A stretch of DNA of 54,928 nucleotides from a virus: IMG/VR virus record IMGVR_UViG_3300043409_000503, positions 1 to 54,928 of that record; one strand, given 5' to 3'. Below the pieces are notes generated by a model, which ran no database searches, was not told the DNA's origin, and saw nothing but the letters and a program-made list of their open reading frames with translations. Both the position numbers and the translations under genes were made by a program. Numbering within the stretch: the first letter of the stretch is position 1; the number at the start of each line of letters is the position of its first letter. Shown here piece by piece: positions 4,226 through 17,811 of this stretch.

Positions 4226-4240
4226 ACATAGGGGATAAAA

Positions 4241-4627
4241 ATGAAGCCGTTAACTAACGCTTGGGACGATGAGGAAGTGCCTGAAGACACGGACGATATG
4301 CTTAGTCGAGATCCGCACAAAATGGTGGACTTTATTTTCGTCAACCGAGGAAAGCTTGCAGAGGCTGTTGGAGCGCGTGGGTATCTTGAGAACTTCCTTA
4401 AATCAAAGAAGGCCTTGTTAATGAAAGCCAGCGGAGAATCGACCATTGGGGCACAAGAGAGGGAGGCCTATGCGCATCCTGATTACATTGCCCTATTTAA
4501 GGCGATTGAAGAGGCCAAGGTGCTTGAGGAGACGTTGCGGTGGGGGATGACTGGGGCTCAGATGCGGGTAGAGATCTGGCGCACTGAGCAGGCAAATTAC
4601 AGGGCTGAAGGCAAGATTACATTGTGA
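4241..4627 (+). CDS. Conserved-type phage protein, 128 aa
   Basis: Starts acidic (WDDEEVPEDTDDM). Then comes a helical region with KALLMKASGE, GAQEREAYAHPDYIALF and LRWGMTGAQMRVEIWRTEQANYRAE. The 'GAQErEAYAhp.Y..l' and 'R.EvWRt.qAn.Ra' segments recur in phage early regions next to RusA. The helical-hairpin character suggests a DNA- or protein-binding accessory factor, but no function is established. Confidence 0.75.
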   Translation: MKPLTNAWDDEEVPEDTDDMLSRDPHKMVDFIFVNRGKLAEAVGARGYLENFLKSKKALLMKASGESTIGAQEREAYAHPDYIALFKAIEEAKVLEETLRWGMTGAQMRVEIWRTEQANYRAEGKITL

Positions 4628-4821
4628 TTAAACTTGGGGACTGGGTGATGATCTGTGAGACGGGTGACAAGGGAGTTGTCATTGCTGCGATGGATCAGAA
4701 CGAGCGGTTTGTCGTCCAGATTCCTCCAACAGCGAAGTGGTTGCACGTAAAGCAGGTCCATGTGGGCATTGAGAAGGTACGAAAGATCAAGCCGATCTTA
4801 CAGATGAAGTTATTTTTTTAA
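4624..4821 (+). CDS. KOW/SH3-like small protein, 65 aa
   Basis: GTG start overlapping the previous stop (GTGA). The sequence KLGDWVMICETGDKGVVIAA looks like the beta-barrel 'G D.V.i..g..G.V' pattern of KOW or SH3-like folds. A basic C-terminal part follows. A second protein of this type is at 6229-6438. Function unknown. Confidence 0.65.
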   Translation: MIKLGDWVMICETGDKGVVIAAMDQNERFVVQIPPTAKWLHVKQVHVGIEKVRKIKPILQMKLFF

Positions 4822-4834
4822 TATTGGAGGTTTT

Positions 4835-5050
4835 ATGAAACGTGATCGTTTATCTATTGTTGCAGACATCCGGCCAGCACAACGTGCGGAAGACGAGTTT
4901 AAGACCACGTGGGGACGCGTCTGGACGCACGGCTCAGATGTGATGGGTACCTGGCGTAAACAGCTCGTCAACGGTAAGCCCTGGGTGCCGCCAAGCGAGG
5001 TGCGGGATGATTTCCTGTTTAAGCAGAACAGAGAGAAGCCAAGCAAATGA
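4835..5050 (+). CDS. Hypothetical protein, 71 aa
   Basis: ATG preceded by TTGGAGG at good spacing. Contains TTWGRVWTHGSDVMGTWRKQ and KPWVPPSEVRDDFLF, rich in Trp. Not recognised. Its stop overlaps the start of the next small gene. Confidence 0.7.
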   Translation: MKRDRLSIVADIRPAQRAEDEFKTTWGRVWTHGSDVMGTWRKQLVNGKPWVPPSEVRDDFLFKQNREKPSK

Positions 5051-5151
5051 CCTCACTATCCATTGTGTTGTTAGTTGCCGGGTTTTTTATCGGCGTGGCG
5101 GCAGCGGTTGCCGCGGTGGGCTTTGTTCTGTATTGCTTCAGTGAACAATAA
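5047..5151 (+). CDS. Small single-pass membrane peptide, 34 aa
   Basis: ATG 5047 overlaps the stop of the previous gene (ATGA). Almost the whole peptide is one hydrophobic helix, from SIVLLVAGFFIGV to VGFVLYCF, followed by SEQ. The translational coupling on both sides supports a real gene. It may insert in the inner membrane during early infection. No family recognised. Confidence 0.6.
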   Translation: MTSLSIVLLVAGFFIGVAAAVAAVGFVLYCFSEQ

Positions 5152-5425
5152 GCTCAACGCGGCAGAGCGCAGGCACCTGCAGCGGGTCAAGAGCCTACCT
5201 TGCTCCGTCTGTAATGCGCCGCCACCGAGCAGCGCTCATCACGTCAAGCAGGGGCTGCAGTACACGACTGTGGCCCTCTGCTACGACTGCCACCAGGGCT
5301 CTCTAATGGGCTGGCATGGGCAGAAGCGTGCCTGGGCAATCCGCAAGGTAGATCAGCTCGATGCGCTTAACGTTACCATTCAGAGGCTTATAGAGAACAC
5401 CTATCAGGTTGAGGATAGCAATTAA
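5141..5425 (+). CDS. Zinc-binding HNH/Ref-like protein, 94 aa
   Basis: GTG 5141 is chosen because the longer frame only reads through the preceding gene. Residues about 10-60 show ERRHLQRVKSLPCSVC, then SSAHHV and CYDCHQG: a Cys2 pair, a central HH and a second Cys-x2-Cys with a trailing His. This is the zinc-ribbon beta-beta-alpha layout of HNH nucleases, close to P1 Ref and DUF968-type proteins. It may nick DNA during recombination. The catalytic His of the HH pair is present; nuclease activity is inferred. Confidence 0.75.
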   Translation: MNNKLNAAERRHLQRVKSLPCSVCNAPPPSSAHHVKQGLQYTTVALCYDCHQGSLMGWHGQKRAWAIRKVDQLDALNVTIQRLIENTYQVEDSN

Positions 5426-5456
5426 AAAGAATTAGGTCGGTAGGTGTATAAATCTC

Positions 5457-5497
5457 TTGTGTGTTTGTTTAATTCCGAATTACACTACGTCTGTAGT
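5457..5497 (+). promoter_or_regulatory. Early promoter with operator-like inverted repeat, copy 1
   Basis: Possible -35 TTGTGT (5457-5462) and -10 TACACT (5481-5486), spacer 18 bp. A perfect inverted repeat ACTAC-GTCT-GTAGT (5484-5497) overlaps the expected start point. TTGTTTAATTC at 5465-5475 is shared with the copy at 6431-6463, including the 10-bp distance to TACACT. The shared block sits 31 bp before the ATG at 5529, and the leader ends in a similar ribosome-binding segment (CAGGAGACCGACC). Confidence 0.6.
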
Positions 5498-5528
5498 CCA
5501 GTGATTCACAACCCACAGGAGACCGACC

Positions 5529-5825
5529 ATGAACAATGACCTGAACACCAACAAAATTGACAAACTCGGCGCTTTGCTTGCAGAGATCGCTGACTTGACT
5601 GCCGAGGCGAACCTTATTAAAGAGGGCCTCAAGGACATAGCAACGGCCCCAGGCTCTACCGAAAAGGTATTTGAGGGTGCGCTGTTCAAAGCTACCTTTA
5701 GCGAGACTAACCGCGGCAACGTTAACTACAAGAAGCTTTTCACCGCCCTCGGCATCAGCTCTGAGGTTATTGCTAAGTATACGGAAACTACCGCTGTGTT
5801 TAGCATCAAGGTAGGGGCACGCTAA
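5529..5825 (+). CDS. Conserved-type phage protein, 98 aa
   Basis: The N-terminal helix KIDKLGALLAEIADLTAEANLIKEGLKD looks like a coiled coil. A compact alpha/beta part follows: VFEGALFKATFSETNRGNVNYKKL and TTAVFSIKV. The 'F.G.lfkAt..e..R...d.k......gi...' pattern is common in small phage early proteins of unknown role. It is the first gene behind the promoter/operator copy at 5457-5497 and overlaps the HTH gene by 1 nt. Confidence 0.75.
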   Translation: MNNDLNTNKIDKLGALLAEIADLTAEANLIKEGLKDIATAPGSTEKVFEGALFKATFSETNRGNVNYKKLFTALGISSEVIAKYTETTAVFSIKVGAR

Positions 5826-6232
5826 TGAAATTCCAAGAAACTTTTTGCAGCCAGTGCGGTCAGGGCTTCGGCCCTGGCGACGGCGGCTACTCGTCGTGCA
5901 AGTCGCACGCCCCTAAGCATCAGCACAATTGGGCGGCCTACAGCCGTATGGCTCGTGGTGCCCTTGGTTTGTCCCAGGCTGAGGTAGCGCAGGCGTTAGG
6001 GGTTACCAGGGTTACGATTATTAGGCTGGAGACTGGGCGTAGTCCGGTTAAGGCTTTGTTAGTGAACACGCTCATTGATTTTTATACCTCACAGGGCGTT
6101 TCATCAAATATACAAAAGCACCCCTCCCTTTTGTCTGGACAATATGTCACGGTTGGTATCTATTTAAATTCAAAAGGTGGGGGGGTTTTTGTATCGCCAC
6201 TGAAAGCTAATCCATTAAGGGGGAAGAAATGA
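5825..6232 (+). CDS. Zinc-ribbon plus XRE-type helix-turn-helix regulator, 135 aa
   Basis: The N-terminus has CSQCGQGFGPGDGG then SSCKSH, a likely zinc-binding ribbon. Residues about 38-85 form an XRE HTH (YSRMARGALGLSQAEVAQAL, then GVTRVTIIRLETGRSPV). The C-terminal quarter is beta-rich and unassigned. It lies between two copies of the same promoter/operator repeat (5457-5497, 6431-6463). The simplest reading is a local transcription regulator acting on those sites, which is inferred from position. Confidence 0.8.
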   Translation: MKFQETFCSQCGQGFGPGDGGYSSCKSHAPKHQHNWAAYSRMARGALGLSQAEVAQALGVTRVTIIRLETGRSPVKALLVNTLIDFYTSQGVSSNIQKHPSLLSGQYVTVGIYLNSKGGGVFVSPLKANPLRGKK

Positions 6233-6438
6233 AAGTCGGACAGCACGTCAAGTTCAACAAGAAGTTGCCACGCTTAGCCCACTGCCGGGGGTTTATCACA
6301 GCAATCGACGGCATGATCGTCAAGATGCACTGGTACGAAGGGGCCGAGGACGGTCCAATGCATACCCTACTGGAGCACTTAGAACTGGCAGGTAAAGCGC
6401 CTCAAAAAATAGTAAATAAAGATAGCCTAATTGTTTAA
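6229..6438 (+). CDS. KOW/SH3-like small protein, 69 aa
   Basis: ATG overlaps the regulator stop (ATGA). Sequence VGQHVKFNKKLPRLAHCRGF, then ITAIDGMIVKMHWYEG, gives alternating strands typical of a small beta-barrel. The last codons overlap the TTGTTTAATTC box of the second promoter repeat. Not recognised further. Confidence 0.7.
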   Translation: MKVGQHVKFNKKLPRLAHCRGFITAIDGMIVKMHWYEGAEDGPMHTLLEHLELAGKAPQKIVNKDSLIV

Positions 6439-6463
6439 TTCGATGTTACACTACGTATGTAGT
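6431..6463 (+). promoter_or_regulatory. Early promoter/operator repeat, copy 2
   Basis: TTGTTTAATTC (6431-6441), TACACT (6447-6452) and the inverted repeat ACTAC-GTAT-GTAGT (6450-6463) reproduce copy 1 at the same internal spacing. A good -35 box is not obvious here, which suggests activator dependence or that the conserved element itself is the recognition site. The next gene starts at 6491 after CAGGAGAACCGACC. Confidence 0.55.
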
Positions 6464-6490
6464 ACTTCATAACAGACAGGAGAACCGACC

Positions 6491-6754
6491 ATGAAACAGC
6501 ATCCTTACCTAGAGTACTTTGTCCGCGGCGCCTGGGGCGACATCGAGTGCTTAGTCAACGTTACCCACTTCCATCATCAACCTGCGGACCGTAGTTGCAC
6601 AGACAGCGACATGGACTACCGCGGCTTCACCGAAGTCGAATTCGGTTTGCTGCACCTTGATGGCACGCCGGCGCCTGAGCTGGAAGAGCTGATGGATATC
6701 AAGAAAGTTGCGGATATCGAAGAGATGATTATTGCTAACCTTTGGGAGAACTAA
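6491..6754 (+). CDS. Hypothetical protein, 87 aa
   Basis: First gene behind promoter/operator copy 2. Rich in His and acidic residues: NVTHFHHQPADRSCTDSDMD, and a C-terminal acidic helix. The N-terminal EYFVRGAWGDIECLVNV reads as beta strands. Possibly metal-binding because of the His cluster; otherwise not recognised. Confidence 0.7.
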   Translation: MKQHPYLEYFVRGAWGDIECLVNVTHFHHQPADRSCTDSDMDYRGFTEVEFGLLHLDGTPAPELEELMDIKKVADIEEMIIANLWEN

Positions 6755-6755
6755 G

Positions 6756-6953
6756 ATGCTGGCTTACTGCGATTACATTATTACTATCATTAAGACTAAC
6801 CTGCTGCCGCACGACGACCTGGCGCACATCGATACGGTTGGCCCGGTTAACTACGACCTGGGCCCGAACGGGGAGTTCCTGGGCACCGCTAAGACGCTGG
6901 AAGTGACGGACATGAACGGCAAACGTTACCTGATCACAGTGGAGGAGCTATGA
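6756..6953 (+). CDS. Hypothetical protein, 65 aa
   Basis: The start is placed at ATG 6756, after GGGAGAACTAAG, because the upstream part of the frame lies inside the previous gene. Contains a helix (YCDYIITIIKTNLL) and strands (TLEVTDMNGKRYLITVEEL). Not recognised. Confidence 0.65.
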   Translation: MLAYCDYIITIIKTNLLPHDDLAHIDTVGPVNYDLGPNGEFLGTAKTLEVTDMNGKRYLITVEEL

Positions 6954-7135
6954 GCATTAGCCCGGACGATGTCTATAAGAAGGCTATACAGCTCGGCTTT
7001 AATCCAGAGACCGACGAGATCCGCTTAGGGCGCCTTCTAGCCCTTTCGCAGTCGTTCTATCACCAAGGGTTTATGGAGGGCGTAGAGAGCCTTAAAACGG
7101 CCTTAGAACACGCCAGGACAGGGGAGGCAGTATGA
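6950..7135 (+). CDS. Hypothetical helical protein, 61 aa
   Basis: ATGA overlap with the previous gene. Sequence SPDDVYKKAIQLGFNPETDE then LGRLLALSQSFYHQGFMEG suggests a small helical bundle. Not recognised. Translationally coupled on both sides. Confidence 0.65.
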   Translation: MSISPDDVYKKAIQLGFNPETDEIRLGRLLALSQSFYHQGFMEGVESLKTALEHARTGEAV

Positions 7136-7359
7136 AACGCGTAACGTTAGAGGACGCGCCTGCTGAGTACAGCCTAGAGCAGGCAACGATCTGGCTGGAG
7201 GCCTACAACCAGGGATTTGAGGTCGGTGTTGAGGTTGAGCGGGATGATTGTGCGCGGATGGCTGACCATTACTTTGACTACGCCCCGAGTAAGCAGATGC
7301 GCGTTGCTTACGGGAACCTTGCTGACGCCATTCGTGGGAGAGATCATGACAACCTGTAA
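7132..7359 (+). CDS. Hypothetical protein with 'ERDDCARMAD' motif, 75 aa
   Basis: ATGA overlap with the previous gene. The middle part FEVGVEVERDDCARMADHYF belongs to the 'ERe.CAk...' group of small early proteins in this genome; the rest (SKQMRVAYGNLADAIRGR) is helical. Function unknown. Confidence 0.7.
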   Translation: MKRVTLEDAPAEYSLEQATIWLEAYNQGFEVGVEVERDDCARMADHYFDYAPSKQMRVAYGNLADAIRGRDHDNL

Positions 7360-7597
7360 CGATATGCACATCCGCGGTTTAGAGTTATTAATTGAATCGC
7401 TCGACAAACAAATTGAAGATGATTCCGAAAAAAACGGGGTGCATCACGACGCCATCCGAGTGGTATTACGGCATATTTATGATAAGGAAGGCATCGCCGT
7501 TATTAGAATGTTAAGCGATAAAATTCAGAAGGAAGTAGATAACGTCCCTTTTGCAGATTGGCTCATGCATTTTTTATATGACTTTGAATATGACTGA
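7346..7597 (+). CDS. Hypothetical helical protein, 83 aa
   Basis: ATG 7346 follows GGGAGAGATC; the longer frame upstream is out of phase with the real preceding gene and was discarded. Helical and acidic: IRGLELLIESLDKQIEDDSE and IAVIRMLSDKIQKEVDN. A+T-richer than its neighbours. Not recognised. Confidence 0.65.
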   Translation: MTTCNDMHIRGLELLIESLDKQIEDDSEKNGVHHDAIRVVLRHIYDKEGIAVIRMLSDKIQKEVDNVPFADWLMHFLYDFEYD

Positions 7598-7760
7598 CAT
7601 TATCCAACTAGCAATTGATGCCAGCGTTAAAGCTGAGCGTGAGGCCTGCGCGAAGCTATGCGAGGCCCTAGCTAAATGGCATAGCGAGACGGTAGCGGCG
7701 GCCTTTGAGTCTGCTGCTGAGGCAATCAGAATGAGGGGGGATAAGAATGACGCGAAATAA
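7590..7760 (+). CDS. 'EREACAKLCE' family small protein, 56 aa
   Basis: ATG 7590 overlaps the previous gene. MTDIIQLAIDASVKAEREAC then AKLCEALAKWHSETVAAAFE is the classic form of a very common phage small-protein motif: a helix with two Cys four residues apart, followed by AIRMRG. The function of this family is not known to me. Confidence 0.75.
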   Translation: MTDIIQLAIDASVKAEREACAKLCEALAKWHSETVAAAFESAAEAIRMRGDKNDAK

Positions 7761-8139
7761 TATTGTTAAGTGGGCCCAGGACGCTGGGGTTATGCCGCTA
7801 GGCTGCGACGCGACAGAGGATCAATGGCAATCACTAGAGTTGTTTACAGCGTTAGTCTTAACAGCAGAGCGCCGGCGTCAAGCTCATGGTGCGGCATATT
7901 GGACTGCTTATGAGTATGACGTTGCCGCAGAAGAGCGCGAGGAATGTGCGAAGTTGTGTTTTCAAATGTGGAACAAATGGTTGGACTCTGAAGATAAAAG
8001 TGATTTTAGGCCGCCCGATGCAGAGGATTGTGCCGCAGCTATCCGCGCAAGAGGGGTGGCCATGACGCAAGATGAGAAAGATGTTCTTCAGAATGCCCTT
8101 GACGAGGCTATGGTTGAGATAAGGGGAAGGAACTCATGA
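7747..8139 (+). CDS. 'EREECAKLCF' family protein, 130 aa
   Basis: Overlaps its neighbour by 14 nt. It has an N-terminal helical part (KWAQDAGVMPLGCDATEDQW) seen in other phage proteins that contain this motif, then AAEEREECAKLCFQMWNKWL, then AEDCAAAIRARG. A C-terminal acidic helix follows. It seems to be the longer member of the same family as the preceding gene. Confidence 0.75.
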   Translation: MTRNNIVKWAQDAGVMPLGCDATEDQWQSLELFTALVLTAERRRQAHGAAYWTAYEYDVAAEEREECAKLCFQMWNKWLDSEDKSDFRPPDAEDCAAAIRARGVAMTQDEKDVLQNALDEAMVEIRGRNS

Positions 8140-8381
8140 CTGACAAAGAAGTAATGCAGGCAGCACTAGCGCAGCCTGAACGAGCAGAATGTGACGGCGG
8201 GCAGTGTGGTATTGGCGGGTATTGTAAGCAGTGTCCAAAGACGCAGCTTAAACGCGAATGGCAGGGGCTGACCGATGAGGAATACGAAGCAATGGCAGAG
8301 CAGTATGTAACTAACTGCTATTTCGATACATTGGAATACGCAAAAGCCATCGAAGCAAAGCTAAAGGAGAAGAACACATGA
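8136..8381 (+). CDS. Cys-rich small protein with 'REWQGLTDEE' motif, 81 aa
   Basis: ATGA overlap. Cys-containing segment ECDGGQCGIGGYCKQC, then REWQGLTDEEYEAMAEQYV, and the end AIEAKLKEKNT. The last part is encoded by a junction repeat (copy 1 at 8352-8383) that also supplies the next ribosome-binding site. Paralogous to 9201-9440, which shares REWQGLTD and the EAKLKEKN tail. Function unknown. Confidence 0.7.
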   Translation: MTDKEVMQAALAQPERAECDGGQCGIGGYCKQCPKTQLKREWQGLTDEEYEAMAEQYVTNCYFDTLEYAKAIEAKLKEKNT

Positions 8382-8587
8382 CAATCGACATGAAAAAAAT
8401 ATGGTTTGTAGACGGACAAATAATTGAGGAACAAATACCTGAAGAAAAAATTTATTGGCAAAGCCTTACCAAAACAGATATTGACAAGGCATGGGAATGG
8501 GCACAAAAAAGCTCACCTTACGGGGTAACCCGTATCGAAACATTTGCCAGAGCTATCGAAGCCAAGCTAAAGGAGAAGAACACATGA
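8378..8587 (+). CDS. Hypothetical protein ending in the shared EAKLKEKNT tail, 69 aa
   Basis: ATGA overlap with the previous gene. The N-terminal part MKKIWFVDGQIIEEQIPEEK differs from its neighbours, while the C-terminus (FARAIEAKLKEKNT) is nearly identical to that of 8136-8381 because it lies in the junction repeat. A+T-rich. Function unknown. Confidence 0.65.
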   Translation: MTIDMKKIWFVDGQIIEEQIPEEKIYWQSLTKTDIDKAWEWAQKSSPYGVTRIETFARAIEAKLKEKNT

Positions 8588-8745
8588 CAATGCACACTTA
8601 CCCGCTAAACGATTTGCGCGAACATGAAACTGATAAAGGTGCATTTTGCTGGTGCAGACCGGAGTACGACGAGGAGTATGACTTGTACGTACATAGAAGC
8701 ATGGATGGGCGCGAAGAATACGAAGAAGGAAGGAAGCCGACATGA
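8584..8745 (+). CDS. 'PLNDLREH...CWC' small protein, copy 1, 53 aa
   Basis: ATG 8584 lies inside junction repeat copy 2. The sequence YPLNDLREHETDKGAFCWCR, then acidic DEEYDLYVH and the end EEGRKPT, is clearly paralogous to 9004-9204. The 'PLnDlreH......CwC.P..de....v.H.s.D.Re.yE' pattern is common in phage small proteins; the Cys-Trp-Cys and His may bind metal. Function unknown. Confidence 0.75.
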   Translation: MTMHTYPLNDLREHETDKGAFCWCRPEYDEEYDLYVHRSMDGREEYEEGRKPT

Positions 8746-8990
8746 ATGAACAAATTAAACAACTTGCTAAACAGGCAGGATTTTACAAGTACGGTGATGA
8801 TTTTGAAGACATAATAGAAAAATTCGCCGAGTTGATTGTGCTGGAATGTATGCGTATGTGTGAGGTTACGGAGATGAGTTTTGTGACTCATGGTTGTGAT
8901 GTTGAGGCATCGGGTGCAATTACGGTTAGAAAATTTATTGCTGAACATTTTGAAGTTGGAGATATACCCGAGCCATCGAAGCCAAATTAA
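8742..8990 (+). CDS. Hypothetical protein, 82 aa
   Basis: ATGA overlap. MNEQIKQLAKQAGFYKYGDD then FAELIVLECMRMCEV resembles the 'LA..aGf......e.FA.lIv.EC...C' small phage family, so it belongs loosely with the Cys-helix proteins. Its stop codon falls within junction repeat copy 3, read in a different frame from the other copies. Confidence 0.7.
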   Translation: MNEQIKQLAKQAGFYKYGDDFEDIIEKFAELIVLECMRMCEVTEMSFVTHGCDVEASGAITVRKFIAEHFEVGDIPEPSKPN

Positions 8991-9003
8991 GGGAGAAGAA
9001 CAC

Positions 9004-9204
9004 ATGACATGGCAAGTATGGACAAACATAATGCAGAAGAACGGGGCTTCAACTCATGTGGTTCCGTTAAACGATCTTCGAGAACACGCAGAAGAAGCGA
9101 CGTGCTGGTGTAACCCGCGAGTTGACGAGGAGTTGAATTTAGTTACGCACAACAGCGCAGACAATAGAGAGGCGTTTGAAACAGGGGAAAGGAAGCCGAC
9201 ATGA
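9004..9204 (+). CDS. 'PLNDLREH...CWC' small protein, copy 2, 66 aa
   Basis: ATG 9004 is supplied by junction repeat copy 3. PLNDLREHAEEATCWCNPRV then DEELNLVTHNSADNREAFE and GERKPT align with 8584-8745, with a longer N-terminus. The DNA at the 3' end (AAGGAAGCCGACATGAAT) is identical in both copies, showing a duplication of the cassette. Confidence 0.75.
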   Translation: MTWQVWTNIMQKNGASTHVVPLNDLREHAEEATCWCNPRVDEELNLVTHNSADNREAFETGERKPT

Positions 9205-9440
9205 ATTGCAAAGACGATGTTGAGGAAAAGTTTATAAAAGATTGGAACGAAGGCAAAGTGCGGCGCGTGTCTGACGGTAAAAGAATGGTTCCAGAGCGCG
9301 AATGGCAGGGGCTGACGGATGGTGAGAGAGAACAAATTGAAATAAAAGCTAACGACAAGAGTGAGATGACGGCTTGGGAATACGCACATCGTGTCGGTAA
9401 CTTTACAGAAGCCAAGCTAAAGGAGAAGAACAGTGGATAA
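9201..9440 (+). CDS. 'REWQGLTDGE' paralog, 79 aa
   Basis: ATGA overlap. Shares EREWQGLTDGE and the tail EAKLKEKNSG with 8136-8381 but lacks its Cys-rich N-terminus. Instead it starts MNCKDDVEEKFIKDWNEGKV. This is evidence that small-gene ends are recombined at the junction repeats. Confidence 0.7.
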   Translation: MNCKDDVEEKFIKDWNEGKVRRVSDGKRMVPEREWQGLTDGEREQIEIKANDKSEMTAWEYAHRVGNFTEAKLKEKNSG

Positions 9441-9690
9441 GAATATATGCGGCATCTGTCGGGACGGGCTTGTTTATGAAGTCACCAGAGTAAATGACGA
9501 GTACAAAGTCAAAACTGGAAAAGCGTTTGCAATAGACCTGACAAACCCGTTGAAGACTATAGATAGCACAGTCGGGGGGATGCACCGTAAGCAGTTGCAC
9601 GACTTGCTAGATGAGTGGATTGATAATGCGCTAAAAGATATGACGGGTACTAACGGCCTAGCCTCAGGCCGGTTTCCCTGTGACCACTAG
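9433..9690 (+). CDS. Hypothetical protein with CxxC, 85 aa
   Basis: GTG start just after junction repeat copy 4 (AAGGAGAAGAACAGTG). The N-terminal ICGICRDGLVYEVTRVNDEY could bind a metal through the Cys pair. LHDLLDEWIDNALKDM is helical. Not recognised. The stop codon lies in the stem of a hairpin. Confidence 0.65.
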   Translation: MDKNICGICRDGLVYEVTRVNDEYKVKTGKAFAIDLTNPLKTIDSTVGGMHRKQLHDLLDEWIDNALKDMTGTNGLASGRFPCDH

Positions 9691-9730
9691 GTAGCCAGAC
9701 CAATTAACTGCCTAGTAAATTAATTATACT
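9686..9730 (+). promoter_or_regulatory. Hairpin and possible promoter between 9690 and 9745
   Basis: A 9-bp stem (9686-9694 with 9708-9716, one G-T pair, loop 13 nt) overlaps the stop codon of the previous gene. It is followed by TATACT (9725-9730), a possible -10 box. The best -35 candidate (TTAACT, 9704-9709) leaves only 15 bp, so the promoter call is weak. There is no T-run, so a pure terminator is unlikely. The hairpin may be an operator or a processing/attenuation element. Confidence 0.35.
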
Positions 9731-9744
9731 GTAAGGAAAAAAAT

Positions 9745-10083
9745 ATGAGCGACTGGATGACTGAAGAGTACGGGTTCCCGCACAAGGATGGCAAGGTGAG
9801 ATGGTACGTAGTTGGCGCGGAGGAAGATGTTTATGGATACCTTGGCTGGTACGACATGACTGATTGGGACAAAGGGCTTGAAGAGGTTCTGTTTGATGCA
9901 AGGCAAATCGTACAAGTCGCAAACGGGGGGCTTGATTTTCAAGTCTTACGACATGATCAAATTATTACTTTAGCAAATAATGTTAAATGGGCATTAGAGG
10001 ATGCGTTAGTAGTTCCAGGAGAAACCACGTTTAATTATTGGTATAAGAGGAAAGAAGCATTAAAAGGGGATTCTCAAGAATGA
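9745..10083 (+). CDS. Hypothetical acidic protein, 112 aa
   Basis: Preceded by GTAAGGAAAAAAAT. Alpha/beta composition with many Trp and acidic residues: VRWYVVGAEEDVYGYLGWYD, and the C-terminal YWYKRKEALKG. Not recognised. First gene after the hairpin region and coupled (ATGA) to the next HTH gene. Confidence 0.7.
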   Translation: MSDWMTEEYGFPHKDGKVRWYVVGAEEDVYGYLGWYDMTDWDKGLEEVLFDARQIVQVANGGLDFQVLRHDQIITLANNVKWALEDALVVPGETTFNYWYKRKEALKGDSQE

Positions 10084-10316
10084 GACCGCATGCACTGCTG
10101 GACTATTTGATTGAGAACCGTTGGGCAGATGGTGACCGGGACTTAGTAGAGTTACTAGACATGCCACGCTCTACGATTAGCAAGATTAGGCACCGTAACG
10201 CAATTGTTAACCCAACCCACATCCTGAGTATTTATGACGCGACGAACTTGAGCATTGACGAAATTAGGGGGCTCATTGACAAGGCATCGAAGGAGACAAA
10301 TGATGAAGACGAGTGA
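10080..10316 (+). CDS. Helix-turn-helix protein, 78 aa; possible late-gene regulator
   Basis: LVELLDMPRSTISKIRHRNA (residues about 21-40) is an HTH of the Cro/YdaS or XRE type, and IYDATNLSIDEIRGLI fits the remaining helices. It is the last regulator gene before the late promoter at 10499, the place where lambda-type phages put the antiterminator Q. It could control that promoter directly. This is inferred from position; no Q-family similarity is visible. Confidence 0.75.
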   Translation: MRPHALLDYLIENRWADGDRDLVELLDMPRSTISKIRHRNAIVNPTHILSIYDATNLSIDEIRGLIDKASKETNDEDE

Positions 10317-10398
10317 TACAATGAAACCTAAGCCGTGGGAGATTGTAGTGGCCACAGTATCAATTGTGCTGCTGTTCCTTTTGGCTGCATTACTTTAA
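10300..10398 (+). CDS. Small membrane peptide, 32 aa
   Basis: ATG 10300 (or 10303) follows AAGGAGACAA and overlaps the end of the HTH gene. A short polar N-terminus with Lys residues precedes one hydrophobic helix (IVVATVSIVLLFLLAALL) that runs to the stop. Likely an inner-membrane peptide with N-in topology. No family recognised; a role in early host takeover or lysis timing is only a guess. Confidence 0.55.
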   Translation: MMKTSDTMKPKPWEIVVATVSIVLLFLLAALL

Positions 10399-10498
10399 CC
10401 TTTAAGGCGTCCTATAAGGGGTCCTTGAAGGCTACCGGTGGTCTGGAGTTTGCCTTGGTCGGTTTCGCTGGGCCTGACACCTCGGAAAGACGGGGGAC
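10399..10498 (+). other. Gene-free segment upstream of the late promoter
   Basis: No gene or convincing start signal is seen in this 100-bp piece. It is rich in short complementary G and C blocks (for example AAGG at 10412-10415 with CCTT at 10422-10425), so its RNA could fold, but no T-run ends a stem and no clear terminator is visible. It forms the start of a 549-bp stretch without genes (10399-10947). Confidence 0.5.
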
Positions 10499-10527
10499 TT
10501 GACAGTATTAGTCTGGGCAATTAATAT
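10499..10527 (+). promoter_or_regulatory. Strong sigma-70 promoter, likely late promoter
   Basis: A perfect -35 TTGACA (10499-10504), a 17-bp spacer and -10 TAATAT (10522-10527). This is the best promoter in the window. Expected start about 10534. It lies at the border of the early small-gene region and the packaging/structural genes, followed first by a short terminated unit and then by the terminase operon, as in lambda PR'. Confidence 0.75.
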
Positions 10528-10533
10528 TCACAT

Positions 10534-10680
10534 ATCCAATTGGGTGGTGCCGATTGGTAGTTTCCAACAACGAGAGAATGCCCTGATAAGGCAGGCTTCG
10601 TCAAAGCTTCGAGAATGTGGTTGGACACACTCTCATAAGCGGCCAACCAAGCCTAAAGCCTCCTTTTCAGGGCTTTTTTA
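10534..10680 (+). ncRNA. Predicted short leader RNA of about 145 nt
   Basis: Bounded by the promoter at 10499-10527 and the terminator at 10655-10679. It contains helices TCCAAC (10563-10568) with GTTGGA (10620-10625), and GAGAG (10572-10576) with CTCTC (10630-10634). These cross each other, so they form either a pseudoknot or two alternative folds. The hairpin GCC-CTGATAA-GGC (10580-10592) sits between. No credible reading frame fits inside. The layout matches the lambda 6S RNA made from PR' in the absence of Q. An independent regulatory RNA is the alternative. Confidence 0.55.
10655..10679 (+). terminator. Rho-independent terminator between late promoter and late genes
   Basis: Stem AAAGCC (10655-10660) with GGCTTT (10671-10676), extendable by one T-G pair, 8-10-nt loop, and six T (10674-10679) running through the 3' arm. 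Late-gene transcription from the promoter at 10499 must pass this site, which implies antitermination or partial read-through. Confidence 0.65.
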
Positions 10681-10947
10681 TTGGTGGCTGCCGATAGACA
10701 TGCGGTACGTCGGTGGTGTCTTGGTACTACTCTGCTACACGAGCAAGCCAGAGCAGAGACGGTGGGCGAATCCTAGAGCCGGGTGGTTGAGAATAGTCTG
10801 GGATGCTGTGCGACGGGGATGGCTCCGGGCGACAGAAAAGCGAGTCCGTTTCATTACGGTATGGGCTTGCTTTGCTCTAAGGATTCACCAAGCGACACCC
10901 TCAAAAAGCCTATAAGGCACAAACGACTACCTTCACAAGGGAAAGAG
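10681..10947 (+). other. Structured untranslated leader of the late operon
   Basis: There is no believable gene here. A long-range helix pairs GAATCCTAGAG (10768-10778) with CTCTAAGGATTC (10875-10886, one bulged A), closing a domain of about 120 nt. A perfect 7-bp hairpin CTCTGCT...AGCAGAG with a 15-nt loop lies just before it, around 10730-10758. A small stem CCGT-TTCATT-ACGG lies inside. The first 16 nt (10680-10695) nearly repeat 10539-10554 at the 5' end of the short leader RNA. This could be a put-like antitermination RNA or a stability element. No tRNA cloverleaf was found. Confidence 0.45.
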
Positions 10948-11112
10948 ATGAAACCACTTACAGAAGCCCAGATCCAAGAGCTATACGACATAGCCGCAAT
11001 GGAAGCCTGGAAGACCTTCGCAGCCTACCCGCCAGAAATATTCCCCATCATCTTCGCCAGAGCTATCGAGTCCTATCACGGGATAGAAGATAGACAAGCC
11101 CCAGAAGCGTAA
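10948..11112 (+). CDS. Small hypothetical protein, 54 aa
   Basis: ATG 10948 follows AAGGGAAAGAG; the longer open frame upstream crosses the structured leader and is rejected. Sequence MKPLTEAQIQELYDIAAMEA then PPEIFPIIFARAIESYHGIE. The 'iFARAIE..HGI' ending is a recognisable phage small-protein pattern, also found as FARAIEAKL in 8378-8587. First gene of the late operon. Function unknown. Confidence 0.7.
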   Translation: MKPLTEAQIQELYDIAAMEAWKTFAAYPPEIFPIIFARAIESYHGIEDRQAPEA

Positions 11113-11138
11113 GTACACTGCGACCAAAGGAGCACACT

Positions 11139-11621
11139 ATGGCCAAGATGGGAAGACCCAGCATATACAACGCTGAACTAGCTGCGAGTATCCTAATTAG
11201 GATCAGTAACGGCGAGTCGCTGCGTAGTATTACGAAGGACGAGGGGATGCCGACGCAAAGCTCGGTGTACCTGTGGTTGCTACAAAAGCCAGACTTCTCA
11301 GAGCAATATACGCGTGCACGGGAGGAGCAGGCTGATACTTTAGCTGACGAGATCCTAGCTATTGCTGATGAGACGCCCGACTCTGTGACTGACGAGAAGG
11401 GGATTAGCCGCACCGATTCTGGCTGGGTAACCTGGCAGCGGAACCGCGTTGACGCCAGGAAATGGGTAGCCAGCAAGCTCAAGCCGAAGAAGTATGGCGA
11501 GGCCCTCAAGGTCGGTGGTGACAAGGATAACCCATTAGCGGTGACGGTGGGGACTGAGGTCTTCGATAGCGTGCTAGAGAACCTAGCGCTGCAGAAGCAA
11601 CTGCAGAAGCCTAAAAAATGA
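11139..11621 (+). CDS. terS: Terminase small subunit, 160 aa
   Basis: Recognises phage DNA and starts packaging with the large subunit. The N-terminal HTH (ISNGESLRSITKDEGMPTQS) is the DNA-binding part. ADTLADEILAIADETPDSV and the block VDARKWVASKLKPKKYGEAL are hallmarks of this TerS type. The C-terminus is a helical, charged oligomer/TerL-binding tail. RBS AAAGGAG. It overlaps TerL by 4 nt, the usual coupling. Confidence 0.92.
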   Translation: MAKMGRPSIYNAELAASILIRISNGESLRSITKDEGMPTQSSVYLWLLQKPDFSEQYTRAREEQADTLADEILAIADETPDSVTDEKGISRTDSGWVTWQRNRVDARKWVASKLKPKKYGEALKVGGDKDNPLAVTVGTEVFDSVLENLALQKQLQKPKK

Positions 11622-13039
11622 GTGACCTGGCCGAGATACTGAAAGACGAGACGGTTCGTCGTCAGTTCATGGCAATGCCCCCGGCGCAACGGGCGGCTTA
11701 CGGCTGGAGGATGCAGTGGCTATCTAAAGCCCACAGGCATCAGATATTACCTAATGGGGACTGGTGGAGTGTTTGGCTTCTATTAGCGGGGAGAGGCGCC
11801 GGCAAGACCCGCACGGCGGCTGAGCAGCTGGCCTGGTGGGCCTGGACCGAGCCTAACACTAGATGGTTAGTCGGGGCGCCAACGAGCGCTGATGTGCGTG
11901 CTACCTGCTTCGAGGGGGATAGCGGCTTGATGTCAGTTATCCCGCCGATCCTAATTAAAGACTACAACCGCGCCTTCCACGAGATCACACTGATTAACGG
12001 TAGCCTGATCAAGGGCATCCCGGCGAGTGAGCCTGAGCGCTTCCGCGGTCCGCAGTTCCACGGCGGCTGGTGCGACGAGCTGGCGGCCTGGGATTACCTC
12101 GACGCCGCCTGGGACCAGATTAATTTTAGCGTCCGACTCGGTAAGCATACCAGGCTGATCTGCACAACGACCCCGCGGCCGAAGGACCTGATCATCGACC
12201 TCATTAGCCGTGACGGGGACGACGTTGTTGTTACAACGGCATCGACCTACGACAACATATCGAACCTGTCGAACAATTTCCAAAAACAAATCCTGCAATA
12301 CGAGGGCACCAAGCTTGGCAGGCAGGAGATCTACGCCGAGATCCTGGACCCTGAGGAATCTGGCATCGTCAAGCGGGAGATGTTCAAGCTCTGGCCTAAC
12401 GGCAAGGAGTTCCCCAAATTCGAGTACATCATCCAGAGCTACGACTGCGCCTATAGCGAGAAGACGGTCAACGACCCGACGGCATGCATCACGTTCGGCA
12501 TGTTTAAACCGCTGGACGGTCCAATGTCCGTGATGGTGATCGACGCTTGGCAGGACCGGCTGCAGTACCCAGACCTGCGCCCGAAGGTCATCGACGAGTA
12601 CGACACGATATTCGGTGAAGGTAAAGATAAGAAGCGGGTTGACCTAATCTTAGTTGAGGACAAGAGCGCCGGCATCAGTCTTATACAGGACCTGCAACGA
12701 GCCCACCTGCCTGTCCGTGCCTACAACCCTGGCCGCGCTGACAAGATGCAGCGGCTCAACATTGTCTCCAACATCATCGCCAGGGGCCGTGTCTGGATCC
12801 CTGAGAGCAGCATCCGCAAGGGCTACGTGCGAGACTGGGCAGAGGGCTTTGTTAGCCAGATCTGCAGCTTTCCTGAGGCCACGCACGATGACTTCGTGGA
12901 CGCGTGTACCCAGGCTTTACGCTACCTGCGTGACGCCGGCTGGCTAGAGATTGACGCGCCGCCGCGAGATGACTATGACGAAGAGGACCTGATCGACTCG
13001 GGCATGATGACCACGCGTGTTAACCCCTACGCCGTATAG
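11618..13039 (+). CDS. terL: Terminase large subunit (ATPase/nuclease), 473 aa
   Basis: DNA-packaging motor. Walker A LLLAGRGAGKTRTAAEQL at about residues 54-70, Walker B region GGWCDELAAWDYLD near 150, coupling motif CTTTPRPKDL near 180. The C-terminal RNase H-like nuclease has its acidic residues in IIQSYDCAYSE, LILVEDKSAGISL and ATHDDFVDACTQALR. Length is normal. Translationally coupled to TerS. Closest in type to large terminases of the Terminase_6 group; the packaging mode (headful or cohesive ends) cannot be read from it. Confidence 0.95.
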   Translation: MSDLAEILKDETVRRQFMAMPPAQRAAYGWRMQWLSKAHRHQILPNGDWWSVWLLLAGRGAGKTRTAAEQLAWWAWTEPNTRWLVGAPTSADVRATCFEGDSGLMSVIPPILIKDYNRAFHEITLINGSLIKGIPASEPERFRGPQFHGGWCDELAAWDYLDAAWDQINFSVRLGKHTRLICTTTPRPKDLIIDLISRDGDDVVVTTASTYDNISNLSNNFQKQILQYEGTKLGRQEIYAEILDPEESGIVKREMFKLWPNGKEFPKFEYIIQSYDCAYSEKTVNDPTACITFGMFKPLDGPMSVMVIDAWQDRLQYPDLRPKVIDEYDTIFGEGKDKKRVDLILVEDKSAGISLIQDLQRAHLPVRAYNPGRADKMQRLNIVSNIIARGRVWIPESSIRKGYVRDWAEGFVSQICSFPEATHDDFVDACTQALRYLRDAGWLEIDAPPRDDYDEEDLIDSGMMTTRVNPYAV

Positions 13040-13099
13040 TCGGTAGACGGGTAACGGAGACCCCATGATAATTGACAGACTTACTATGTGGAGCTGACG

Positions 13100-15073
13100 A
13101 TGGACTTACGCGAATGGTATCAAGCCGGGAACCACCTGCCTAATATGGCCAAGGGCGGGAAAGCCAAGAAGGACATGCGCCGTGTATCTGACGGCCCTAT
13201 TGGTGACTCCCTAAGCGACCTTGAACTTGATGACTTCCTAAGCGATCGTGAACTTGATGAGTTACGTAAGCGCATGGCAGAGACAGACGCCAAGATTAAA
13301 GACCTAGAGCCGGTGCCGACAGAGGTTGAGACGGGCAGCGACCCGATGCTGCGAGATGTTTACCCGCGGCTCAAGCGTGAGATGGAAGCCAATCCGCACC
13401 TATATCAGTATGGGACAGCGGATAAAAAAGACCCGTCGTTCAGACGCCCGATGCTTCGTAAGCCTGCTGGCCGTCCAGACGACGTGATCCCAGATCGCCT
13501 CGACAACGATTGGCTTGAGTACCAACTACGTCCGCGTGGCCAGACCGACTTCTCAGATAAGCTCCCGCCAGGCATGGAGTTGCCAATCGGGAAGGTGCGC
13601 TCGGCCCTCGAAGACCCATCCGAATACTACGCCAAGGGCGGTGAGGTGTCTGGCCCGAAAGGGTTCGGACTCGCTGACGTAGCCCCGTTCGTGAGCCCAA
13701 TGAGCATGAAGACCGGTGGCCAGGCTCGGACACGGGCAGGCACCATCGCTAAGCCGACGTTCATTGACGAGCAACTAGGCCGGACATCGGAGCGCCTATC
13801 TAAGCTTGCTACGGACCCTGAGCAGGCTATGAGGGATATCGCCGCTCAGTACTTCCCGTCGCCCACAGAGAGCCCAGAAGAGCAGCAGCGCAAGCTCGAG
13901 GAACTAGCGTTAGGCTTCACTGGCAGCATCAAGTCTGTTAAAGGTGCGCCAGCGGTTAAAGCGGCTAAGGCTCCCAAGATTAAGCAGACGGTAACGGATC
14001 CTCAGCGGATCGCCTTCCCTGGTATTTATCAGCGCCCTGATGTGATCGCTGCCGAGGCCGCATCCCGTGTAGCGCCTGAGAGCCCAAACCTAAAGAACAT
14101 CTTCGGTGTGACCCGAGAGGACTTGTTCCAGATGGGCAAAGGCCGTGAAGGCAACCTGCCTGGTGAGTTACCCGGTGCAACAGCAAACCCCCGCGGCTCA
14201 AAGGCTGCTGCCGGAGTAATGAACAAGAAGAACGAGCAGCGCATTATTGACGCTATGGCTGAGGCTGAGAAGCATCCTGCGTTAGTCCAAGGCATGGACC
14301 CGTGGTACGTGATGGACCCTGTCTTCCAGCGCATGGTCAAGCTTCTGGGTAAAGACCGAGCGATTGTAGAGTACCAGCGACTGAACACGTTGATGGGCAT
14401 GGCTTCCCCAGGCAGTGAGGTATTGACTGAGATCCCCCGCGGGACTGCGGCCAACATGCTCTACAAGCAGGGCCGTTTCCCAGAGTTTGTTGAGCATCTT
14501 GGCAAGCCTGCGTCACAAAGGTCAACGGTGCCAAAGGATATCGTAAATGTCCCTGGCCATATGTACCACAAGACAGCGCAGGCTATCCCGATGGAGCAAT
14601 ATCTTCAGACAGGCGCGTTGCAGATGGATAGTCCTAAAGTTCCTATGTACATTGAGGCAAGCGGCGTCCCAGAGACTGGCTTCCAGACTCGGACTCCGGT
14701 AGGTGATGCGCACTGGAGCCGTGCCGTCGGATTAGCTGATACCCGAGGCGCTAGGATGCTCAAGGGCAAGCCTGTTATCCCTGGTGCCAGCGTGTCCACG
14801 CCTGAGATGCAAGCCTTAGCCCCGTGGTGGCAACAAAACATTGCCGCCCCACTAGGCCTTGAGTCTGTCCCTGCACAGGCAAGGGCATGGGGGACATTCT
14901 CTGGCCAGACCGGCGTAACAACACCTATTGGTGCCCCGAAGATTGAGCTCCTAGCTGACAAGATCGCTGAGACTTCGCGCCGACTGGGTATCTCACTAGA
15001 GCAAGCAAGAGACAGAGTCCTGATGGGTGAGGCCTATGCCGGCAAGAAAAAGGGCGGCTTAGCTCATATTTAA
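13100..15073 (+). CDS. KGG-motif virion-associated protein, 657 aa
   Basis: ATG 13100 is preceded by GGAG at 6 nt; a GTG at 13088 is less likely. The N-terminus is basic with AKGGKAKKD, and YAKGGEVSGPKG and KKKGGLAHI occur later. The C-terminal half holds a folded domain, from NLKNIFGVTREDLFQMGKGR to APKIELLADKIAETSRRLGI. Its 'PWW...AAPLGL.....QA..W..FS.QTGV.T.iGAPKiEl' region resembles a domain found in phage polyvalent or virion proteins (possibly DUF7178-like, not certain). It lies between terminase and portal. Perhaps a packaged or ejected protein. Confidence 0.65.
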   Translation: MDLREWYQAGNHLPNMAKGGKAKKDMRRVSDGPIGDSLSDLELDDFLSDRELDELRKRMAETDAKIKDLEPVPTEVETGSDPMLRDVYPRLKREMEANPHLYQYGTADKKDPSFRRPMLRKPAGRPDDVIPDRLDNDWLEYQLRPRGQTDFSDKLPPGMELPIGKVRSALEDPSEYYAKGGEVSGPKGFGLADVAPFVSPMSMKTGGQARTRAGTIAKPTFIDEQLGRTSERLSKLATDPEQAMRDIAAQYFPSPTESPEEQQRKLEELALGFTGSIKSVKGAPAVKAAKAPKIKQTVTDPQRIAFPGIYQRPDVIAAEAASRVAPESPNLKNIFGVTREDLFQMGKGREGNLPGELPGATANPRGSKAAAGVMNKKNEQRIIDAMAEAEKHPALVQGMDPWYVMDPVFQRMVKLLGKDRAIVEYQRLNTLMGMASPGSEVLTEIPRGTAANMLYKQGRFPEFVEHLGKPASQRSTVPKDIVNVPGHMYHKTAQAIPMEQYLQTGALQMDSPKVPMYIEASGVPETGFQTRTPVGDAHWSRAVGLADTRGARMLKGKPVIPGASVSTPEMQALAPWWQQNIAAPLGLESVPAQARAWGTFSGQTGVTTPIGAPKIELLADKIAETSRRLGISLEQARDRVLMGEAYAGKKKGGLAHI

Positions 15074-15116
15074 GCTAACAGCGGCATTAACAAATTAACT
15101 ATTGTCTGGAACTGTT

Positions 15117-17669
15117 ATGGCACAAGAATTTCCAATCGACCCAGCGTTTGACCGATTCGTAGATCCTATGTCTGAGGCGCCAGAAGGCGAAGAGGATGAG
15201 GAAGGCGTTGAGGTTGAGCTTGATATTAACGATGAGGATATTGAGGAGCTCCCTGACGGATCCGTCATTGTTACGATGGACACAAAGGGTCCACGCGAGA
15301 ACGAGGACTTCTATCAGAACCTGTCAGATAGCGAAGACTTCGACTTTGACGTGTCCACGATGGCCATGCGCTACATCAAGCTTATCGATAACGATAAGGA
15401 AGCCCGTAAGAAGCGCGATGAGCAGTACGAGGAGGGCATCAAGCGCACCGGCTTAGGTAACGACGCCCCAGGTGGTGCGCAGTTCCAGGGCGCCTCTAAG
15501 GTTGTCCATCCTGTGATGGCTGAGGCCTGCGTTGACTTTGCCTCACGGGCAATTAAGGAGATGTTCCCGCCTGACGGCCCGACCCGGACTAAGATCCTCG
15601 GCGAGGTAGACAAGGAAAAGATAGAGATCGCTGAGCGTAAGCGCGACTTTATGAACTGGCAGCTCACGGAACAGATCGAGGAGTTCCGCGACGAAGAAGA
15701 GCAGCTCTGTACGCAGCTTCCGTTAGGCGGCTCCCAGTACCTGAAGATGTGGTACGACGAGAAGAAGCGCCGCCCATGCACCGAGTTCCTGCCAATCGAC
15801 AACGTCCTGCTGCCGTTTGCCGCGGCTAACTTCTACACCGCCCAGCGCGTAACCGAGATTCAAGACATTACGGAGATGGAGTTCAAGTCCCGTATCAAGT
15901 CTGGCCTGTACCGCGACATCGACTTTATCCGCGCCACCGCTGAGCCTGAGCCAACGAAGCCTAAGAAGGCCAACGACAAGGTTGAGGGTATTACTGCCGG
16001 CGACAATGAGGATGGCGTGCGCCGGGTTTACCACATCTATACCTGGTTAGAGCTCGAAGAGGACAAGTACTCGAAGGGCGAGAGCGCCCCGTACATCCTG
16101 ATGATCGACGAGTTCGACAATGAGGTCATCGGCCTGTACCGTAACTGGGAAGAGGGCGACGAGACCATGTCGAAGTTGGACTGGATCGTCGAGTTTAAGT
16201 TCATCCCCTGGCGTGGCGCCTATGCAATTGGCCTGCCGCACCTAATTGGTGGATTATCTGCAGCCTTGACGGGTGCCTTAAGGGCGCTTTTAGACACCGC
16301 ACATACCAATAATTCACTGACTGCGCTGAAACTGAAGGGCTCGAAGATCTCTGGCCAGTCGCAGAACATCGAAATCACGCAGGTAACGGAGATTGAGGCT
16401 GCCCCTGGTGTTGACGACATCCGTAAAGTGGCTATGCCGCTACCGTTTAACCCGCCAAGCCCGGTACTTTTCCAGCTTTTAGGTTGGCTTAACGATGCAG
16501 CGAAGGGTGTAGTGACCACGGCAGAGGAAAAGATCGCTGACGTTAACTCAAACACACCTGTTGGCACGACCCAGGCGTTAATTGAGCAGGGCGCGGTCGT
16601 ATTTTCGAGTATTCACGCCCGTATGCATACGTCTCAGGGCCGTGTCTTGCGGATTCTGTCCCGAATTAACCGCTGGTACCTCGACGATATGCGTCGTGGC
16701 GAGATGGTTGAAGATCTGGACATCAAGCGCGAGGACTTTGCCCGCATTACGGACGTTATCCCTGTCTCGGACCCGCATATCTTCAGCGAAACGCAGCGGA
16801 TGGCGCAGACGCAGGCGGTTATGGCGATCATGGAGAAGAATCCTGACCTGTTTAACCGCAAGGTGGTCATTGAGCGCTTCCTAAAGCAGATCAAGGTGCC
16901 TGGCGTTAACGAGCTGATGGTCGATACCCCGTCGCCGGTCAAGATTGACGCAGCTAACGAGAACGTGGCGATGGCAATTGGCCAGATGGCCGCGGCTTAC
17001 CCTGAGCAGGACCATCTTGGCCACATCCAGGCGCACTTGGACTTCGCAAAGAACCCGGTACTGGGCGCCAATCCGTTGATTGCCCCGACTTTCGTGCCTA
17101 AGGTCATGGAGCACGTCAAGCAGCACATCGTCCTCTGGTACCTGAACCGCATGAACGGCTATGTCGAGCAGTCGCTAGGCAAGAAGATGGCCGAGTACGA
17201 GCTCCTCAAGGACCCCAAGATGGTGGACAAGCTGTTTGGTGCCGCGTCTCAGCACGTAGACATGGATACGCAGCAGACCCTGTCGGGGATTATGCCGGTT
17301 ATCCAGCAGATCACCCAGATGGCCGAAAAGTACCGTCCTCAGCCGCCGATGTCGCCGGACACCAAGGTCCTTCTGGACACCTCTATGGCCGAGACGCAGC
17401 GTCGTGCAGAGCGGGACAAGGCAGAGATGTCGTTAGAGGCTCAGAAGGCCGCTACGAAGGCCCAGGAGACTATGGCGAAGATGAAGCAGGACTTCGATAT
17501 TGCGATAGAGGACCAGCAGTTGAAGTTGGCCATTGCGACCAACGACCAGGACATGAAAGAACGCATCGAGACGGCCCGTTTAACGCGGGATGCTGCCAAG
17601 CTCTCTCACGAGCAAGACAAGACCGTTTTATCTTTAATCCCCTCAGGAGGCAATTATGGCAACGAGTGA
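15117..17669 (+). CDS. Portal protein, 850 aa
   Basis: Forms the dodecameric ring through which DNA passes. ATG 15117 is chosen over an upstream TTG. An acidic N-terminus is followed by the core: MRYIKLIDNDKEARKKRDEQ, ASKVVHPVMAEACVDFASRA, then KFIPWRGAYAIGLPHLIGGL and TPVGTTQALIEQGAVVFSSI. That 'G.T.aLlEq....fs.i..r...s' wing helix is typical of long podovirus portals. The C-terminal 150 residues are a Gln/Lys coiled coil, suiting the portal barrel. Larger than P22 gp1 (about 725 aa). Immediately downstream of the packaging genes and upstream of chaperonin and scaffold genes. Confidence 0.88.
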   Translation: MAQEFPIDPAFDRFVDPMSEAPEGEEDEEGVEVELDINDEDIEELPDGSVIVTMDTKGPRENEDFYQNLSDSEDFDFDVSTMAMRYIKLIDNDKEARKKRDEQYEEGIKRTGLGNDAPGGAQFQGASKVVHPVMAEACVDFASRAIKEMFPPDGPTRTKILGEVDKEKIEIAERKRDFMNWQLTEQIEEFRDEEEQLCTQLPLGGSQYLKMWYDEKKRRPCTEFLPIDNVLLPFAAANFYTAQRVTEIQDITEMEFKSRIKSGLYRDIDFIRATAEPEPTKPKKANDKVEGITAGDNEDGVRRVYHIYTWLELEEDKYSKGESAPYILMIDEFDNEVIGLYRNWEEGDETMSKLDWIVEFKFIPWRGAYAIGLPHLIGGLSAALTGALRALLDTAHTNNSLTALKLKGSKISGQSQNIEITQVTEIEAAPGVDDIRKVAMPLPFNPPSPVLFQLLGWLNDAAKGVVTTAEEKIADVNSNTPVGTTQALIEQGAVVFSSIHARMHTSQGRVLRILSRINRWYLDDMRRGEMVEDLDIKREDFARITDVIPVSDPHIFSETQRMAQTQAVMAIMEKNPDLFNRKVVIERFLKQIKVPGVNELMVDTPSPVKIDAANENVAMAIGQMAAAYPEQDHLGHIQAHLDFAKNPVLGANPLIAPTFVPKVMEHVKQHIVLWYLNRMNGYVEQSLGKKMAEYELLKDPKMVDKLFGAASQHVDMDTQQTLSGIMPVIQQITQMAEKYRPQPPMSPDTKVLLDTSMAETQRRAERDKAEMSLEAQKAATKAQETMAKMKQDFDIAIEDQQLKLAIATNDQDMKERIETARLTRDAAKLSHEQDKTVLSLIPSGGNYGNE

Positions 17670-17811
17670 TCAAGAGCAAAAAAGCATCAATGTACCGCAA
17701 CACAAGCGCATCGCAATGGGCGAGAAGCTTGATGGTACGTCCCTTCAACCAAAAGGCGGTAGCTCAGCCCAAAAATCCTCAGGAGGCCTGCCACAGACAA
17801 AAAGTAAATGA
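17656..17811 (+). CDS. Small basic/polar protein, 51 aa
   Basis: Starts inside the portal end, with AGGAGG at ideal distance. Polar and disordered: VPQHKRIAMGEKLDGTSLQP then KGGSSAQKSSGGLPQTKSK, again with a KGG motif. Its stop overlaps the next start (ATGA). It could be a virion-associated peptide. Not recognised. Confidence 0.65.
   Translation: MATSDQEQKSINVPQHKRIAMGEKLDGTSLQPKGGSSAQKSSGGLPQTKSK

Follow-up and report, generated by a model that had tools for sequence, protein, structure and literature searches.

What is transcribed between a strong phage promoter and the terminase genes that follow it, and what decides whether RNA polymerase goes on into those genes? The question is raised by a locus in the window, by which we mean the whole stretch of 54,928 bases analyzed here; the record carries a 221-base direct terminal repeat, so the window is probably a complete genome. 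On its plus strand, a sigma70-type promoter (TTGACA-17-TAATAT, 10499-10527) is followed by a short leader, a predicted terminator and then the terminase operon, and the likeness of this geometry to lambda PR'/tR', noted in the original prediction, is borne out. The same prediction took the arrangement for a switch of late transcription, with antitermination either by the helix-turn-helix (HTH) protein encoded upstream or by some RNA-based means. We describe here a cassette of two structured RNAs, E1 and E2, placed ahead of a phage operon, and weigh the proposal that E1 is a cis-acting gate (attenuator), to which we give an even chance.

Results

A conserved promoter and a folded leader

The promoter elements of the window lie at 10499-10504 (TTGACA) and 10522-10527 (TAATAT), with a 17-nt spacer. 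Over positions 1-20000 of the window, neither promoter-like sites (17 versus 15.8 expected) nor terminator-like sites (17 versus 18.6 expected) exceed chance on their own, and it is the comparison across relatives that makes both significant. A promoter scoring at least 9/12 precedes E1 in 55 of 87 distinct loci. Of 1740 random windows, 1.6% reach that score, and mononucleotide shuffles do so in 6%. Its position is conserved as well: among the 77 loci with a promoter score of at least 8, the -10 element ends 12-14 nt before the start of the E1 profile in 70. The promoter originally proposed is thus present, at a conserved spacing.

The short leader RNA that had been predicted to run from this promoter to a terminator is a strongly folded element of about 150 nt, E1 (10533-10682, plus strand), which is matched by a covariance model and ends in its own predicted intrinsic terminator. 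The 147 nt from 10534 fold with a z score of -4.5, and none of 200 shuffles was equally stable. Relatives obtained via the two terminase proteins, and in that sense chosen by terminase, contain the same element. In an alignment of 51 distinct sequences, the E1 model comprises 9 helices, with changes on both sides at 32 of 48 pairs (a value reached by 0 of 500 shuffles); 92.3% of cells pair, versus 75.8% in shuffles, and shifting the partner by 1-3 columns lowers pairing to 25-50%. The 5' hairpin, P1 (10535-10558, plus strand, window coordinates taken from the alignment), has UGGU in its loop and shows both-side changes at 7 of its 8 pairs. A candidate UGGU/ACCA pseudoknot shows almost no variation on either side. 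A search of type A, the module 1 type to which the E1 of the window belongs, found no conserved competing antiterminator helix, and E1 resembles one robust fold. A coding role for E1 and E2 was considered and rejected: the 138-aa ORF at 10499-10915 has no family match, and both elements carry indels that are not multiples of three across relatives.

A terminator in the original prediction was also placed after the promoter, and this claim holds, with a correction as to the helix. The window does contain a terminator-like local hairpin that ends at 10676, with U at 10674-10679; as the conserved terminator of E1 it was rejected, since 2 of its 6 pairs fail in 40 and 41 of the 51 sequences. The conserved predicted terminator is instead the long-range closing helix of E1 (about 10574-10598 with 10656-10676, helices 3-6) together with the U-run at 10674-10679, the whole spanning 10574-10679 on the plus strand. 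At least five U in a row stand at the end of E1 in 48 of 51 distinct sequences, helices 3-5 within the long closing helix show both-side changes at 11 of 15 pairs, and at least 70% of the closing-helix pairs are retained in 41 of 51 single-sequence folds. Helix and U-run together have the form of a conserved G+C-rich hairpin with a U-run by which an intrinsic terminator is predicted.

A second structured RNA without a promoter of its own

Beyond the terminator, a linker (the S3 region, 10683-10695, plus strand), whose pairing with the 5' loop is seen in type C relatives only, leads to E2 (10696-10892, plus strand), a second structured RNA recognized by a covariance-model match. Its alignment holds 57 distinct sequences of 59 candidates, two (L372 and L375) having been left out on no scientific ground. 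Both-side changes occur at 15 of 41 pairs and 95.6% of cells pair, neither value being reached in 500 shuffles; the count of further pair types is not above shuffles (112 of 500 reach it). Upstream of E2, a promoter scoring at least 9/12 was found in 0 of 91 distinct loci. Since E2 lacks a promoter, E2 and probably the terminase operon would depend on read-through of the terminator. The 3' end of E2, in the window (10884-10890) and relatives, is mostly UUCACCA or a near variant, and resembles a tRNA 3' end.

The terminase operon does come after the terminator, as had been proposed, with E2 and a small gene in between. This first gene after E2 (54 aa, 10948-11112, within the ORF at 10783-11112) has no PHROG match; it is followed by the small terminase subunit (11139-11621, phrog_1482, E 1.7e-42) and the large subunit (11618-13039, phrog_38, E 6.1e-29), all on the plus strand. 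A weak promoter-like site (9/12) at 11091-11119 could serve terminase alone. Across relatives, an ORF with a Shine-Dalgarno-like word begins within 420 nt after E2 in 96 of 101 distinct loci, at a median of 36 nt, and in 64 of the 101 a Shine-Dalgarno ORF start lies within 60 nt of the E2 end.

Exchange of modules at a fixed place

The two RNAs are joined in varying combinations. Among 381 loci, which are not independent phages as several share one contig, E1 is present in 138, E2 in 156 and both in 23; in all 23, E2 lies downstream of E1 on the same strand, with 18-23 nt between the profile ends. Where E1 occurs without E2, it leads into one of 79 distinct other sequences, which form 15 clusters and of which some seem to be coding; in L199, L237 and L266 E1 appears directly before a coding gene. 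Covariation is clear in two clusters of alternative second modules, of 15 and 6 loci, with 42 of 85 and 26 of 79 pairs, where shuffles give 26.8 and 12.7. A further two, with 4 loci each, are too small to carry weight, and in the largest, of 37 loci, a poor alignment gave 8 pairs, equal to shuffles, with no covariation evident. In the second modules of L157, L171 and L178, GGTTCAAGTCC or a close variant resembles a T-arm, which would fit a tRNA-like domain lying within the RNA.

That the second module is swapped at a fixed place is seen by setting two pairs of loci side by side. L012 and L013, close relatives of the window, match it at 89-92% in E1 and at 96% on the terminase side but have a different second module, while in L113 and L002, also close relatives, the E2 stretch is 100% as in the window and E1 differs by 15-20%. 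When E2 occurs without E1, it is mostly preceded by other promoter-RNA-terminator modules, designated types B, C and D; a few E2 copies (L278, L287 and L367) have no recognizable module 1. Run against 60 E2-only loci, the E1 model gave 4 matches at E<1, each just upstream of E2, and none in the other 56; it had no match at four loci in three phage records from Manatee Spring. These comparisons give no more than a hint that the module 1 types share an ancestor.

A loop with two possible partners in type C

In type C modules, a set of 30 loci with 16 distinct 8-nt loops, the 5' hairpin was anchored on a GTTG arm. A perfect complement to loop positions 2-8 is present in the module for all 16 distinct loops, versus 2 of 240 mismatched combinations, and this inner site ends 18-21 nt before the U-run in 15 of the 16. 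The linker past the terminator also matches the loop above permuted partners: a match at least as good arises in 3 of 5000 permutations with one locus per loop, and in 7 of 5000 with distinct linkers only (n=14). Before anchoring, when the 5' hairpin was poorly placed, the linker pairing gave no or weak signal. In type A, the type of the window, no signal for loop-linker pairing was found (709 of 2000 permutations reach it).

Because both pairings in type C use the same loop, they should be mutually exclusive. The linker is transcribed only once polymerase has gone past the terminator, so its pairing cannot decide termination at that terminator and more likely sets the fold or the fate of the long RNA.

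Genomic context

The context of the cassette bears directly on the notion of a late switch. A total of 227 pattern-scan loci were considered, of which 103 were too short; among the remaining 124, with gene names taken from cluster representatives, 58 lie by replication/recombination genes, 38 by terminase and 28 elsewhere. In the 38 loci by terminase, terminase is upstream of the cassette in 21 and downstream in 17. The first conserved downstream gene is on the cassette strand in 206 of 223 loci. The gene originally put forward for the antiterminator (HTH protein, 10080-10316, plus strand; phrog_638, E 1.5e-4) is outside the conserved cassette, and its cluster, found in only 24 of 270 loci, is confined to close relatives. 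Its matches are to general HTH regulator families and not to Q, in agreement with the lack of Q similarity remarked on at the outset. Since the cassette is found more often by replication genes and the HTH gene only in close relatives, there is no support for a switch specific to late transcription with the HTH protein in control. No antiterminator PHROG family was matched by a scanned set of 28 proteins encoded ahead of terminase, 25 of which lie before the promoter and which cover a subset of early ORFs; this leaves an RNA-based mechanism, the other option raised originally, plausible.

In 8 of 270 loci, a tRNA gene on the same strand is found no more than 600 nt ahead of the cassette (L030, L042, L166, L190, L205, L211, L224 and L234, of which L030 and L166 are on the same contig): five Met, two Leu and one Ile. 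On the minus strand of L382 (MW202545, 3000-9500), the stretch at about 2700-3420 holds a tRNA-like array, seen by eye, and directly after it a module 1 of type C with a second module other than E2; GenBank annotates a hypothetical protein (UOF78434.1) over this stretch. Elsewhere in the window, repeats of about 150 nt at 29342-35675 encode four similar repeat proteins, which we take to be RCC1-like, flanking a presumably sulfotransferase-like gene (31639-33408), and four imperfect copies of a 51-nt unit run across the ends and starts of small ORFs at 8340-9446, suggesting a duplicated small-gene array.

Distribution and database searches

The E1 core pattern and the E2 core pattern were each found in at least 119 IMG/VR contigs. 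Of 28 whole records, 18 contain E1 as a single copy, the exceptions being a single overlap on the opposite strand and a single weak partial match, and 12 contain E2 once each, a 13th having one weak 18-nt match. In 84,980 prokaryote genomes, neither the E1 core pattern nor an E2 pattern longer than the core had a match, these patterns being strict and able to miss divergent copies. Rfam 15, at the gathering threshold, yielded no match to E1 or E2 in the window and 20 loci; a permissive search of 10400-10960 and of three loci with other second modules gave no credible match, those below threshold including asX2, PYLIS_3 and FinP. The GOLLD, ROOL and c4 covariance models matched neither at the gathering threshold (window and 20 loci) nor among the permissive matches. 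By blastn against named phages, E2 had no match and E1 short, low-scoring matches only. Three records of uncultured Manatee Spring phages match parts of the relatives; in the nearest named record, MW202545 (uncultured, Manatee Spring), window 9700-13100 was matched only in the large terminase, at 70%. A literature search of open-access papers turned up no published description that we recognized as this cassette.

Discussion

A candidate gate made of RNA

The proposal that E1 gates the operon in cis builds on the promoter, both folds, the terminator helix, the missing E2 promoter, the exchange of modules and the type C loop pairing, each demonstrated by comparing sequences. From these we infer that the terminator works and that read-through is regulated rather than leaky. 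Host sigma70 RNA polymerase would start at the strong promoter and transcribe E1, whose closing helix and U-run would form an intrinsic terminator, so that a short RNA is the default product. Polymerases that pass the terminator would make E2 and then enter the operon, and E1 would in this manner split the output between a short RNA and a long RNA that carries E2 and mRNA. In type C, the loop of the 5' hairpin may pair either with the pre-terminator site or with the post-terminator linker, coupling the state of module 1 to module 2, and the change of partner would come once the terminator is passed. Several observations count against the gate: E1 resembles one robust fold, with no conserved competing helix found in type A; the linker pairing is not seen in type A and in any case comes too late to decide termination; in some loci E1 appears to abut a coding gene or E2 has no recognizable module 1; and the weak promoter-like site at 11091-11119 could serve terminase. 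A bolder version of the idea, which we hold only tentatively, is that the cassette is a kind of phage RNA machine so far undescribed, built from a 5' module that has its own promoter and terminates itself and a 3' module that can be exchanged. Uncultured phages would recombine the two freely, a 5' loop code would switch its partner from a pre- to a post-terminator site, and RNA folding alone would gate the operon or build a larger RNA particle.

Other explanations share part of this evidence. E1 and E2 could be trans-acting phage RNAs, E1 being a finished small RNA and E2 the product of leaky read-through, with the downstream genes incidental; we regard this as a serious competitor, with something like one chance in three. 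The single copy of each RNA per record, their variable position in the genome, the elaborate and exchangeable second modules, some of them strongly covarying, and the few loci with a same-strand tRNA (8 of 270 within 600 nt) would all suit such RNAs, yet the order and strand of E1 and E2 are fixed, the downstream gene shares their strand in 206 of 223 loci, E2 often ends right before a ribosome-binding site, and neither RNA has an Rfam match. The single copies, along with the terminase genes near 38 of the 124 loci with context, could also be expected of a cos or pac element for DNA packaging rather than of RNAs; compensatory changes in single-strand folds, the promoter and the terminator, and the majority of loci lying away from terminase make this very improbable.

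Control of the lambda Q kind, in which a phage protein loads at the promoter and polymerase then ignores the terminator, the RNA fold being secondary, has the promoter-terminator geometry in its favor. It also has a precedent in AlpA, a protein able, according to PMC9371919, to work like this where a promoter is followed by an intrinsic terminator. We nevertheless consider it unlikely: among the 28 proteins scanned ahead of terminase none matches an antiterminator family, conservation of the cassette does not extend to the HTH gene, and a protein on promoter DNA leaves the dense covariation of the RNA unexplained. An E1 that acts as a gate in cis is the reading we carry forward, at the even chance given above.

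Two RNA families with strong covariation, neither of them in Rfam 15 and each present in 119 or more viral contigs, seem to have gone unnoticed. Their swapped modules provide a natural set of parts for learning how RNA folding sets termination, and the cassette bears on whether phages run operon switches without a dedicated antiterminator protein.

Comparison with known systems

In lambda, the strong promoter PR' is followed by the short 6S leader, the intrinsic terminator tR' and then the terminase and late genes, under the control of Q. The window shares the order of promoter, short leader, terminator and terminase. It differs in that the leader is a conserved folded RNA with a second structured RNA after the terminator, that the 28 proteins scanned include no Q-family match, and that the cassette is also found among early genes, the next genes in most other loci not being terminase. 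The put RNA of HK022 (PMC9378689) is about 70 nt long with two stem-loops; each genome has two copies, and the terminators whose read-through it promotes lie elsewhere. Like E1, put is a cis RNA structure that lies close to where a phage operon begins and bears on termination (an effect that is putative for E1), whereas E1, at about 150 nt with 9 helices and in single copy, itself ends in a predicted terminator.

GOLLD and ROOL are complex phage-borne RNAs that are often near tRNAs, and GOLLD has a less conserved 5' region and a conserved 3' region (PMC12286853). E1 and E2 are similar in being likewise complex, phage-borne and at times near tRNAs; they differ in having no Rfam match, in that E1 is a separate self-terminating unit, and in that the module classes differ in sequence. 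The c4 antisense RNA of phages is named in PMC2864571. The present cassette has no Rfam c4 match, and only in type C relatives is there support for its pairing beyond the terminator. In c4, segments of a leader RNA can base-pair farther along the transcript to which they belong, and the likeness lies in type C, where, judged solely by sequence comparison, a segment of the leader would likewise pair with RNA downstream of it.
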